From assembly GCA_015711795.1 (NCBI GenBank), contig JACVJC010000015.1:1-58158 (forward strand): a stretch of DNA of 58,158 nt. The letters run 5' to 3'. The translations under genes were made by a program, and so were the position numbers. Positions 1 to 10,351 of this stretch are shown here, one piece after another. The stretch comes from Candidatus Geothermocultor quzhuomuensis. Its GTDB lineage: Bacteria > Actinomycetota > Aquicultoria > Geothermocultorales > Geothermocultoraceae. The notes beneath the pieces are model-generated. The model worked only from the letters and a program-made list of their open reading frames with translations. It did no database searches and was not told where the DNA came from. How positions within the stretch are numbered: the first letter of the stretch is position 1; each line of letters opens with the position of its first letter.

Positions 1-993
1 AAGATAAGTATAAATGATGTCATCCAATTAAGGCCTGATATTGTAATAAGTTATAATTATAGGTTTTTAATTCCAAAAGAAATTATAGAATATATGAATG
101 GTAACATTATAAATTTACATATTTCTTTATTACCTTGGAATAGAGGCGCTCATCCTAATGTTTGGAGTTTTTTAGAAGATACACCAAAGGGTGTTACTAT
201 ACATTATATTGATGAAGGAATAGATACCGGCGATATTATAGTTCAGAAAGAGGTTTTTATTGACGAAGGTAAAGAAACCCTAAAAAGTTCCTACGAAATA
301 CTACACAAAGAAATTCAAGAACTTTTTAAAGAAAACTGGGAAGAGATAAAAAACCAGAAGCATAAGGGTAAAAAACAGACAGGGGGGGGAGTATACACTT
401 TAAGAGAGAATTTAAATCAATCGAGCCATTCATTAGAGAAAAAGGATGGGATACTTCAATTAAAGAACTTAAGGAAAAATTTAAAAATTCAAGATGTAAT
501 TCTAAAGAACTTTATATATATGACAACAGAAGAGAAGAAAATGATATTAAACTGGAGAAATAATGAAAATATAAGAAAATGGTGTCATTCATCACATCTC
601 ATATCTCAAGAAGAACACGATAAGTTTATAAAAGAACTTAAAAATGATTGCAAGAATTTTTATTGGCTTTTAGAAAAAGAAAAAAATTATCTGGGAGTAA
701 TTTCATTAAATATGGTAGATTTTAATAACAAACATGCTTATCTTGGGATTTATTCAAATCCAAAACTTAAAGGTGTGGGTAGCGTACTTATGAATTGTCT
801 AAAAGAAGTTGCTTTTAAAATTGCAAGACTTCATACACTTAAACTTGAGGTCTTTGAGGCAAACAAACATGCAATAAAATTTTATAAAAAACATGGATTT
901 AAAGAAGAAGGTCGCCTTAAAGAATTTGTTTATCGGAATGGCAAATGGCTTGATGTGATAATCATGGGATTGGTAGCAAAAAATGACTCTTAA
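1..993 (+). CDS. pseH: Formyltransferase domain read through into PseH-type N-acetyltransferase (5' partial)
   Basis: The frame is open from base 1, so the gene begins upstream of the window; 330 residues are visible. The first ~125 residues are a methionyl-tRNA-formyltransferase-like domain, with the catalytic-type motif NLHISLLPW and the Asp in DTGDI. Residues ~165-330 are a GNAT acetyltransferase matching PseH (LKNF near the start, ILNWRNNENIRKW, GVGSVLMN), which acetylates the C4 amine of the amino sugar in CMP-pseudaminic acid synthesis. pseI follows, which supports the pathway. The join is odd: after the G8 tract at 382-389 about 40 residues resemble no formyltransferase, while the real formyltransferase C-terminus lies in another frame (to 563). 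The fusion may therefore reflect tract length rather than true architecture. The only standard internal start for PseH is ATG 520, which cuts off its conserved N-terminus. Confidence 0.75.
   Translation, partial: KISINDVIQLRPDIVISYNYRFLIPKEIIEYMNGNIINLHISLLPWNRGAHPNVWSFLEDTPKGVTIHYIDEGIDTGDIIVQKEVFIDEGKETLKSSYEILHKEIQELFKENWEEIKNQKHKGKKQTGGGVYTLRENLNQSSHSLEKKDGILQLKNLRKNLKIQDVILKNFIYMTTEEKKMILNWRNNENIRKWCHSSHLISQEEHDKFIKELKNDCKNFYWLLEKEKNYLGVISLNMVDFNNKHAYLGIYSNPKLKGVGSVLMNCLKEVAFKIARLHTLKLEVFEANKHAIKFYKKHGFKEEGRLKEFVYRNGKWLDVIIMGLVAKNDS
382..389 (+). repeat. G8 homopolymer at a frame switch
   Basis: A run of eight G sits in the last part of the formyltransferase domain. With eight G the frame runs into PseH. 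With six or nine G the frame reads on as GGSIHFKREF and then GWDTS, typical of formyltransferase C-termini. Poly-G tracts of this length in surface-glycan genes are classic sites of slipped-strand phase variation; an indel error in the assembly is the alternative. Confidence 0.7.
390..563 (+). other. Out-of-frame C-terminal part of the formyltransferase
   Basis: Read in codons starting at 390, this stretch encodes SIHFKREFKSIEPFIREKGW and then DTSIKELKEKF, ending at TAA 561-563. This looks like the family C-terminus (a GxxH-KxxF region followed by GWDT). It is not joined to the N-terminal domain in the sequence as given, because of the G8 tract. If expressed, its stop overlaps the PseH frame by about 44 nt, as expected for two coupled genes. 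Confidence 0.6.
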
Positions 994-1053: not shown

Positions 1054-2100
1054 ATGCAATTAGAGATAAGTGAGAAAGTCGTTGGAAATAACAATCCCAC
1101 TTTCATTGTAGCCGAGCTTTCTTGCAATCATTTGCAAAAATTTGACTTAGCGGTTAAGACAATTAAAGCAGCTAAAGAAGCGGAAGCTGATGCTATAAAA
1201 TTTCAAACCTACACACCAGATACATTAACTATAAACTGTGATAATCAATACTTTCAAATTCAGCAAGGGACTTTGTGGGATGGGAAAACTCTTTACCAAC
1301 TTTACCAAGAAGCCTATACCCCTTGGGAATGGCAACCTGAGCTTAAACAGCTTGCTGAAAATTTAGGGCTTATCTGCTTTTCCACACCATATGACAAAAC
1401 CGCTGTTGATTTTCTTGAAGAGTTAAAAGTTCCTGCCTATAAAGTTGCCTCTTTTGAAATCACTGATATACCCTTAATTGAATATATTGCTTCAAAAGGA
1501 AAACCAGTAATTATTTCCACAGGAGTTGCTACACTCAATGATATAGAGGAAGCCGTGAGTGCTTGTAAGAGAACAGGGAATGACCAAATAGCTCTCTTAA
1601 AATGCACCTCGGAGTACCCAACACCGCTAGAAGATGTCAACTTGAGAACCCTTCCTGACTTACAAGAAAAATTTAAAACGGTAGTTGGCTTATCTGACCA
1701 TACCTTGGGTATATCTGTTCCCATTGCTGCTGTAGCGTTGGGTGCGAGCATAATTGAAAAACATTTCATCATCGATAGGTCTTTGGGAGGACCTGATGCT
1801 CCCTTTTCTCTAGAACCTGAAGAGTTTAAAGCAATGGTTAAAGCAGTAAGAGAAGCAGAAAAAGCGCTTGGGAAGGTTAGCTATGAACTTACAGACAAAA
1901 TGAAAAGGAGTCGAGAGTTTTCCCGTTCTCTTTTTGTGGTCGAAGATGTTAAAGCTGGTGAAATTTTCACTGAAAAAAATGTTAGATCGATTAGACCAGG
2001 CTTTGGTCTTTCTCCTAAGTTTATAAAAGATATTCTTGGCAAAAAAGCAAAGAAAGATATTGAAAGAGGAACTCCTTTAAACGAGGAGCTAATAGAATAA
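1054..2100 (+). CDS. pseI: Pseudaminic acid synthase PseI (NeuB family)
   Basis: Condenses a 2,4-diacetamido-2,4,6-trideoxy-altrose sugar with phosphoenolpyruvate to make pseudaminic acid in the cytoplasm. The 348 residues have the NeuB TIM barrel (FIVAELSCNH near residue 18, AIKFQTY at ~48, IISTG at ~155, SDHTLG at ~215, EKHF at ~235) and a C-terminal SAF (antifreeze-like) domain from ~290 (RSLFVVEDVKAGE, RSIRPG). Full length. It follows the PseH frame by 60 nt, so the two form the end of a glycan operon whose upstream part is outside the window. There is no clear Shine-Dalgarno sequence; an extended -10-like TGATATAAA lies 9 nt before the ATG, so a very short leader is possible. NeuB paralogues for legionaminic or sialic acid are close, but the adjacent PseH makes PseI the best call. 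Confidence 0.85.
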   Translation: MQLEISEKVVGNNNPTFIVAELSCNHLQKFDLAVKTIKAAKEAEADAIKFQTYTPDTLTINCDNQYFQIQQGTLWDGKTLYQLYQEAYTPWEWQPELKQLAENLGLICFSTPYDKTAVDFLEELKVPAYKVASFEITDIPLIEYIASKGKPVIISTGVATLNDIEEAVSACKRTGNDQIALLKCTSEYPTPLEDVNLRTLPDLQEKFKTVVGLSDHTLGISVPIAAVALGASIIEKHFIIDRSLGGPDAPFSLEPEEFKAMVKAVREAEKALGKVSYELTDKMKRSREFSRSLFVVEDVKAGEIFTEKNVRSIRPGFGLSPKFIKDILGKKAKKDIERGTPLNEELIE

Positions 2101-7860: not shown

Positions 7861-8100
7861 ATGGCAAGACCGCTAAGACTAGAATTTGAAGGGGAAGTTT
7901 ACCACATTACCACTAGAGGAATTGTTAGAAAAGCAATCTTTCTTTTAGAAGACTACACTGATTTCCTTGAAGTCCTCTCGTTTCTCATAAAGAAGTTTAA
8001 CTGGCTTCTTCATGCTTACTGCCTGATGCCCAATCACTATCATCTCTTCTTTAAAACACCCAATGGCAATCTCTATAGAGGGATGAAGCAATTAAACTGA
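7861..8100 (+). pseudogene. Truncated REP-associated tyrosine transposase (RAYT, Y1_Tnp)
   Basis: 79 residues match the N-terminus of IS200-like RAYT transposases: MARPLRLEFEGEVYHITTRG, then a LxxY-HxxxLMPNHYHL segment with the HUH metal-binding pair (HYH). Full-length proteins run well beyond 150 residues; here TGA follows MKQLN, just before the region with the catalytic Tyr, and the remainder is missing. It is therefore probably inactive. It lies directly after the repeat array it would have mobilised and next to a decayed signalling gene, so this is a remnant of a mobile unit. Confidence 0.8.
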
Positions 8101-8128: not shown

Positions 8129-10351
8129 CTATTTACCCTCTTCTTTTTGCTTAAGGTAACAAATAAAAATCTCAACTACCTCGGGGTCAAATTCAACACC
8201 ACTCTTCTTTCTAATGTAATCCATCGCTTCCTTCTTTGACCAGGCTTTACGATAAGGACGGTCACTAGTTAAAGCGTCCCAAACATTAACCACAGCAAAT
8301 ATTTTGGCTGGAAGCGGTATTTCAGGCCCTTTCAATCCCTCTGGATACCCACTACCATCCCATTTTTCATGGTGATAACGAGGAATATCAATAGCTCCTC
8401 TTAAATAATTGATTCTATTAAGCATCTTGTAACCAAAAACGGTATGCATCTTCATTATTGCCCACTCTTCTTCGTTTAAAGGACCGCGCTTCAGTAAAAT
8501 GGCATCGGGAATCCCAATTTTCCCGATGTCATGAAGCAAGGCCCCATAACGAACAAAAACCAGTTCTTCACCTTTAATACCCATTTCTTTTGCCAGCTCA
8601 ACTGTGAGCGTAGTCACTCGCCGGCTATGTTCTTCTGTTTCCTCCTCCTTTAATGCAAGAGCCTTTGCCCAACCTTCAAGAGTTTCCTCGTAAGCTTTAA
8701 GTAACTCCGTTTGCTTTTCCTCCAGGCTCTGAATGAGATTTAAGCTATCAAGAGCAATTGCTATTTGCCTAGCAATCATTTCCAAATCCTTAATCCACCG
8801 CGGACCTCTTGTTTCTGTATCGCTCAGAAAAACACCAAGCACACCGAGAACATTCCCTTTGGAAATCAAAGGAGTGGTGTATAAATCAGAATATTGAGGC
8901 AAGTTCGGTGTTTTCGGTAACTCCTTGCTTCACTCAAGCCATTCAGCAAGTCTTAAAGCTTTCTTTTCTTTAGCTGATTTAGTAACCAAATTTAAGACAA
9001 ACTAAGTTTGAAGAATGCTTAACGGTTCGCCAGGCGAAGTGATGCTGTAAACAAGCTCGAGTTCCCGAGTAAGCGGGTCTTGAATCCAGACAGCAACCGC
9101 TTCTACCCCTAACTGTCGCTTTGTTTCTTCAAGAGCCACCTTTAAGGTTAACTGGAGGTCAAGGCTCCCCAGTATTGTGAGGTCAATAGCGCGTAAAGAC
9201 TCAATGAGAGAAAGATGTTTGCTGGCTTCTAAAAAGAAGCGGGCTTTCTCTAAAACTCCTGCGGCTTGATAAGCAAAGCCTTGAAAAAACTCGATTTGAT
9301 GAGGATTAAAAAAACCGCGAACATCTGAGTAGAGAACTAAAGTTCCAAAAGTTTTTCCCAAACTGACTAAAGGAAAGGCAGTCACCGTAACAAAGCCCGC
9401 CTTTAAAGCTCTTTCTCGAAAAGCAGCAAACCCTTCATAAGTTAGAACATCTTCAACAATTTGAAGTTTTCCACTGCGAATAGCCTTGCCAACAGGGCCT
9501 TGTCCTTCGGGAGTTTCGTCCCACCTCACCTTTATTTGTCGGGGGTAGTCAATGTCTTCCGGATGCTGAGCTACTAGACTAACACTCCCATCTTCCTCAG
9601 CTTTACCAACCCAGGCTAACTTCACTCCAAAATCTTTAACGCAAGTAGCTACAACTTCCTTTGCTATTTCTTCCATGTTTAGCGTTCCAGCCACAACTCG
9701 AGAAAATCTGCGAAGGGCTTCAAGTTCATTTTCGCGTTCCATTAAGTTAGTAATGTCAATCATTATGCCTACTGCCCAGCGAACCGCATCGCCTTTATCT
9801 TCCATCAACCTTAACTCATTTTATACCCACCGAAACTTCCCGTCTTTACAAACAAAACGATAGGTAGCTTCCCACTTTCCTTCATTTAAGAGCTTTTCAA
9901 TATCCACTCTTGCCCGTTCGCGGTCGCGTATGTCAATATGCTCTTCTCGCTTTTCCGGGCTTAATACCGACTCAGAATCGCACTCAAGGATTTCCTCTAC
10001 ATTTTTAGAAATATAAACTGGTATGATTTTTTTATCTCTGATTTCCATTACATAAACAACCCCCCGGGCTCACTGAGAGATAATCTTCCAGAAAACGTTT
10101 TGACTTCAACTCAGCTTCCTGAGCCCGCTTTAACCGATAAAACTGTGCCCTGAACGCTGTAAAAGAAGAAGAGCAGTAACTGCAACAAAAGCCCAACCCT
10201 TAATAGTTTGAAGAAAGACATATAGCTGATGACTGGTTATCAATCGCTCAAGAAGCCAATCGGAAAAGCGTATCCAGAAGCCTGCCACTATTGTATAAGT
10301 TAGAGCTATCTTCAAAGCTGACCCTAACTCAGAACGCTTTATTTCTTCCAA
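8129..10351 (-). pseudogene. Decayed membrane PAS-GAF-GAF-HD-GYP signalling protein
   Basis: Four fragments in order restore one protein of ~740 residues. 10351-10130 holds an N-terminal membrane region (IALTYTIVAGFWIRF, GWAFVAVTALLLL). 10048-9821 is a PAS domain (EATYRFVCKDGKFRWV). 9808-9002 ends the PAS domain and carries a GAF domain plus the start of a second. 8902-8129 holds GAF sequence and an intact HD-GYP domain (HDIGKIGIPD, HHEKWDGSGYP, DALTSDRPYR), a c-di-GMP phosphodiesterase fold. Lesions: a frameshift in 10150-10180, another in the C-run near 10061, in-frame TAA at 9821, TAG at 9002 and TGA at 8930. The last fragment could still make a soluble HD-GYP protein from TTG 8902, but the number of lesions argues for decay. 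Confidence 0.85.

Follow-up and report, generated by a model that had tools for sequence, protein, structure and literature searches.

A poly-G tract at a formyltransferase–PseH overlap as a candidate switch between N-formyl and N-acetyl pseudaminic acid

Poly-G phase variation, PseJ and PseH are each already known. Most documented cases of phase variation come from studies of pathogens and consist in switching a surface gene on or off. In Helicobacter canadensis, C-terminal phase variation has been described for the formyltransferase HCAN_0643, whose tract ranges from G8 to G14 in reads, and a tract change in HCAN_0660/0661 would merge two genes (PMC2823697). Campylobacter carries poly-G tracts in surface glycan genes including Cj1295, and a formyltransferase-domain protein of C. 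fetus contains G9–10 (PMC6321876). The pseudaminic acid pathway is summarised in PMC5109656, and 7-formamido pseudaminic acid, cited in PMC7281560, is a known natural sugar.

Here, we analyzed the window, a stretch of 58,158 nucleotides from Candidatus Geothermocultor quzhuomuensis (contig JACVJC010000015.1), which begins with a G8 tract-bearing overlap between a PseJ-like N-formyltransferase (FT) and PseH (Table 1). We regard it as probable that slippage at this tract, which lies in a pseudaminic acid operon, switches between the two enzymes and thereby between 7-N-formyl and 7-N-acetyl.

Table 1. Features at the FT–PseH junction, in window coordinates
Feature	Position	Strand	Evidence or remark
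PseJ-like N-formyltransferase (FT)	1..389	+	Formyl_trans_N 79 bits; N-terminus off contig
G8 tract, proposed switch	382..389	+	Homologous tracts G9 (L081), G9 (L208), G8 (L211), G7+C (L210)
FT C-terminus, read only with a 3n tract (G6/G9)	390..563	+	FT frame conserved in L081, L208, L210, L211
Linker from tract to PseH, +1 frame, open in G8	391..468	+	Open in 5/5 tract carriers, 0/10 tract-less FTs
PseH, UDP-4-amino-4,6-dideoxy-L-AltNAc N-acetyltransferase	469..993	+	TIGR03585 164 bits
PseI pseudaminic acid synthase, downstream, same operon	1054..2100	+	TIGR03586 517 bits, cut-off 340

Reading frames across the tract

As sequenced with G8, frame 1–993 is open over 330 residues, and FT runs directly into a full PseH. 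Pfam and NCBIfam searches placed Formyl_trans_N at residues 7–107 and PseH at residues 169–322, the latter covering the full model with a curated cut-off of 93.1 bits. The FT catalytic core ahead of the tract includes the N..H motif (NLH) and the D of DTGDI. The frame remains open at its 5' end and the FT N-terminus is absent because the contig (C15) begins at window base 1; the tract lies 382 bases from this contig end, which counts against a switch.

The tract is a simple repeat within coding sequence whose length sets the frame, as is characteristic of phase-variable contingency loci, and its three phases give a fused FT–PseH, a full FT or an early stop. A tract of G6 or G9 keeps reading in the FT frame, which continues as SIHFKREFKSIEPFIREKGWDTSIKELKEKF... 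to a TAA stop at 561–563, and the C-terminus so obtained corresponds to those of intact relatives; with G7 or G10, a stop follows no more than four codons past the tract. Frame translation, combined with domain placement and comparison with intact relatives, confirmed two statements of the first-pass annotation, namely that FT loses its C-terminus and enters PseH with G8, and that G6 or G9 restores a family-like C-terminus ending at 563. The same annotation had described an unrelated linker between the two domains. A linker is indeed present, but it is recognisably common to the tract carriers in the PseH frame (SLEKKDGILQLKNLRKN / SEKKDGIHPSENLRRN / SDKKGGIQQSENLKNN), as it results from reading the FT C-terminus in +1.

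PseH and the FT C-terminus share about 95 bases. Helicobacter pylori PseH (4ri1, 116 bits) aligns from LRKN, corresponding to window base 469 and codon TTA, and C. jejuni PseH (4xpk) aligns from V166. A start codon scan of the window detected no in-frame ATG, GTG or TTG between the tract and ATG 520, and initiation at ATG 520 would cut off the first strand of PseH. In two of the relatives described below, the scan likewise returned no early PseH start (L211) and no PseH start (L081). These observations suggest that the window's organism produces PseH chiefly in fused form. L208 and L210 contain in-frame GTG codons near the PseH start, and their PseH may be partly independent of the fusion; these codons, like the weaker PseH match of L081, count against a switch.

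Two enzymes for one amino group

The closest intact relative of the window FT, from locus L081 of a Nitrospiraceae metagenome-assembled genome (MAG), is 72% identical over the 136 residues of the shared part and was used as its stand-in. L081 FT matches PseJ in sequence and fold over its full length: the best solved relative by sequence is PseJ of Anoxybacillus kamchatkensis (6ci2, 143 bits), and the top Foldseek match of its model is 6ci4 (TM 0.83/0.88). An AlphaFold prediction of the window fusion itself was too poor for use (pLDDT 46). Cutting FT at the tract removes a histidine that is invariant in the FT alignment together with two predicted helices, and the truncated enzyme is probably inactive or impaired.

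According to its PDB description, 6ci4 was soaked with UDP-4-amino-4,6-dideoxy-L-A..., and the PseH family acts on UDP-4-amino-4,6-dideoxy-L-AltNAc, so FT and PseH would compete for the same amine. The amino group acted on by PseJ and PseH ends up at C7 of pseudaminic acid. A predicted formyl/acetyl choice thus appears well motivated. Some pse operons, L082 and L086 among them, contain an FT with no PseH next to it; in these, FT takes the place of PseH, which counts in favor of a switch. No PseG was detected in the window genome by tblastn with PseG of two relatives as queries, and weak PseC- and PseF-like matches lie on other contigs, so the operon would begin off this contig. FT also occurs in a different fusion of this pathway: in two Lachnospiraceae loci (L084:4879-6492 and L085:4879-6492), it is joined in frame to PseI.

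In the proposed mechanism, PseJ-like FT and PseH would act on the same 4-amino group, and their genes overlap in different frames with poly-G just ahead of the overlap. A 3n tract (G6/G9) would complete FT and yield the N-formyl form; in this state PseH, lacking a good start in the window genome, would be made in small amounts or not at all. A 3n+2 tract (G8) would deprive FT of its C-terminus, including the conserved histidine, fuse the remainder to complete PseH and yield the N-acetyl form. With a 3n+1 tract (G7/G10), reading would end just past the tract and leave neither enzyme complete. The most likely cause of changes in tract length is slipped-strand mispairing as the DNA replicates, that is, phase variation. 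We infer that such changes arise within populations and are reversible, and that the activity of each product, and with it the sugar made, would follow tract length. High switching rates would call for longer tracts than G8 or G9, which counts against a switch.

The tract in relatives and competing explanations

The tract occupies the same codons of the FT/PseH overlap in the window, in the Nitrospiraceae MAG (L081, genome G397) and in three Aquificota species. In L081, the tract is G9, FT ends normally and the acetyltransferase overlaps in +1; one G fewer would give the window's arrangement. The Aquificota loci comprise L208 (G729), with G9 and separate genes; L211 (G740), with G8 and a 366-residue fusion; and L210 (G730), with G7+C and a 368-residue fusion in a genome assembled as a single 1.8 Mb contig. 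Tract lengths across the carriers are therefore G9, G9, G8, G8 and G7+C with both frames intact, and the near-identical junctions of G729 and G730 are in opposite states. FT genes examined outside the carriers lack the tract and read QTGEGS, QKGKGS, QREEGT and similar at this position. The first-pass annotation had proposed a phase-variable contingency pattern, and this proposal is supported by tract length varying among relatives (G7+C, G8, G9) while both protein ends are kept; relatives are not uniformly G6 or G9, and the fusion is not fixed in frame. A true in-frame fusion as the ancestral state was rejected, as FT ends by itself in L081 and L208.

The carriers do not represent five independent cases, and the poorly resolved FT tree does not separate single from multiple origins of the tract. 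Searches of Thermotogota gave no FT at E 1e-35, and no tract carrier was recognised in virus and plasmid collections. In the three Aquificota (L214, L215 and L216), the FT–PseH pair does not adjoin pseI and lies near a pseG-like gene and a coiled-coil-like gene of 242–301 residues. The acetyltransferases at L081:2219-2728 and L221:982-1480 score 60 and 44 bits, respectively, against the cut-off of 93 and fall into a separate PseH-like group with weaker matches; the substrate of these tract-linked enzymes may differ.

Homopolymer counts place the tract in context. The window genome holds four G8 and two C8 runs and none longer, against a Markov estimate of about seven and ten; with no genome-wide excess, G8 as such is unremarkable, and a poly-G excess was dropped as an argument for phase variation. 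Outside the tract, G729 (1.69 Mb) has no G/C run of 8 or more, and G397 has none of 9 or more. Chance alone does not account for poly-G recurring in other phyla at matching codons of this overlapping pair. As a side observation, G730 has a single G run of 9 or more, a G16 (L218:6014-6029; G730:C1:402013-402028) in the short gap between a 1050-residue gene and a glyceraldehyde-3-phosphate dehydrogenase-like gene, possibly a promoter-spacing phase-variable tract.

Both overlapping frames are retained. Between the tract and PseH, the +1 frame is free of stops in all five carriers, whereas ten tract-less FT genes, two of them near-identical, have two or more stops each. With the FT protein fixed and codon choice matched, an open +1 frame would arise by chance with a probability of 0.04 to 0.21 per carrier, values left unmultiplied as the carriers are related. 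The FT C-terminal frame is unbroken and conserved, though out of frame, in all three fused genomes (window, G730, G740), and pairwise differences between carriers within the overlap fall mostly at FT third positions.

This conservation bears on a stable loss, in which G8 would be a fixed frameshift toward loss of FT, leaving a PseH-only operon with no return. The pair does decay in g88, a genus of the window's phylum: G151 contains FT without the tract, followed by the first residues and tail of a PseH whose middle is deleted, and G269 has lost FT, and its PseG is followed directly by a PseH that has a TTG start and Shine-Dalgarno sequence of its own and retains the overlap residues LKKNITVGDQILKNF. 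The C-interrupted tract of G730 could likewise be locked in the fused state. Nevertheless, the unbroken FT C-terminus in 3/3 fused genomes, the poly-G kept in two of the three and the opposite states of sister species make a stable loss very improbable. That one g88 species kept the formyl gene and the other the acetyl gene suggests that either enzyme would be enough for the pathway.

A homopolymer error in assembly or sequencing would imply a true G9, with FT normal and PseH initiated at ATG 520 or a non-standard start. The homopolymer near a contig end of a 38-contig draft assembly and the perfectly preserved FT C-terminus past the tract fit such an error. Even with G9, however, the locus would be the same tract-bearing overlap as in L081 and L208; the fused state is also seen independently in G740 and in the C-interrupted, single-contig G730; and the rest of the 58 kb is intact save one decayed gene, broken by stops rather than frameshifts. 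We consider such an error quite unlikely; the relatives argue against a private error, and from their sequences the locus looks like a real switch rather than a sequencing slip. The decayed gene (8129-10351, minus strand) encodes a PAS-GAF-HD protein interrupted by in-frame TAA, TAG and TGA in one frame and looks like a pseudogene rather than a recoded gene; beside it lies a truncated Y1 (IS200-like) transposase fragment (7861-8100, plus strand).

Alternatively, programmed slippage of RNA polymerase or the ribosome during expression could yield FT and the fusion from one DNA sequence at a fixed ratio, with no genetic switching. Maintenance of overlap and tract over long distances with both frames retained, the shortness of the tracts (G8/G9) and the missing PseH start in the window, L211 and L081 are all compatible with this explanation. 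In contrast to programmed frameshifts with tract length and shift direction conserved among homologues, the DNA tract here differs and the default with it, separate in L081 and L208 and fused in the window, L210 and L211, and a ribosome would have to shift one way in the first set and the other way in the second. The G14 of G1104, described next, is moreover typical of phase-variable tracts. Slippage in expression is accordingly rather unlikely; because the DNA tract, and the default frame with it, differs between relatives, slippage in DNA rather than in transcription is the preferred reading.

G1104, from a fourth phylum (that of the Desulfoscipio locus L095), presents the reverse order, with a PseH-like acetyltransferase, G14 and FT in one frame, flanked by pseG-like and pseI-like genes. 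With G13 or G15, stops occur 4 or 26 residues past the tract, and a start codon scan found no own start at the FT N-terminus. The acetyltransferase matches PseH weakly (44 bits). This reversed arrangement is an independent case. The wider proposition, that PseH/PseJ junctions have acquired poly-G two or more times, in both gene orders and across four phyla of environmental and thermophilic bacteria, as a heritable N-acetyl/N-formyl switch with a bifunctional fusion as one state, seems to us evenly balanced.

Comparison with known systems

A literature search, thin on subscription journals, found no description of a PseJ/PseH switch and no paper naming PseJ. To our knowledge, a single tract that selects which of two enzymes acts on an amine has no precedent. 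If the proposed DNA-level switch is real, the N-acyl group of the sugar would change instead of the sugar being removed. It would occur in free-living and thermophilic lineages, where the pressure would be escape from phage or grazers rather than immunity, and would explain the odd formyltransferase–PseH fusion reported by annotation pipelines.

Among the individual enzymes, A. kamchatkensis PseJ (6ci2, 6ci4, 6edk) shares the fold of L081 FT at about 43% identity over the full length. Unlike the carriers, the aligned tract-less FT genes (e.g., L082, L083 and L086; the A. kamchatkensis gene is outside this set) have no poly-G and no overlapping PseH. H. pylori (4ri1) and C. jejuni (4xpk) PseH match window PseH over the full length including the first strand, yet they are separate genes with their own start, whereas window PseH begins inside FT at a non-start codon.

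Among phase-variable loci, H. canadensis resembles the window in that late poly-G alters a C-terminus, one case concerns two proteins versus one fusion and one concerns a formyltransferase. It differs in that the merged genes are hypothetical, the formyltransferase tract swaps only short tails (17, 18 or 22 residues) and no acetyltransferase partner is described. Campylobacter likewise has poly-G within the coding sequence of surface-sugar genes, with tract lengths that vary between strains; there, a single gene is turned on or off, whereas the window tract would choose between two enzymes for one amino group.
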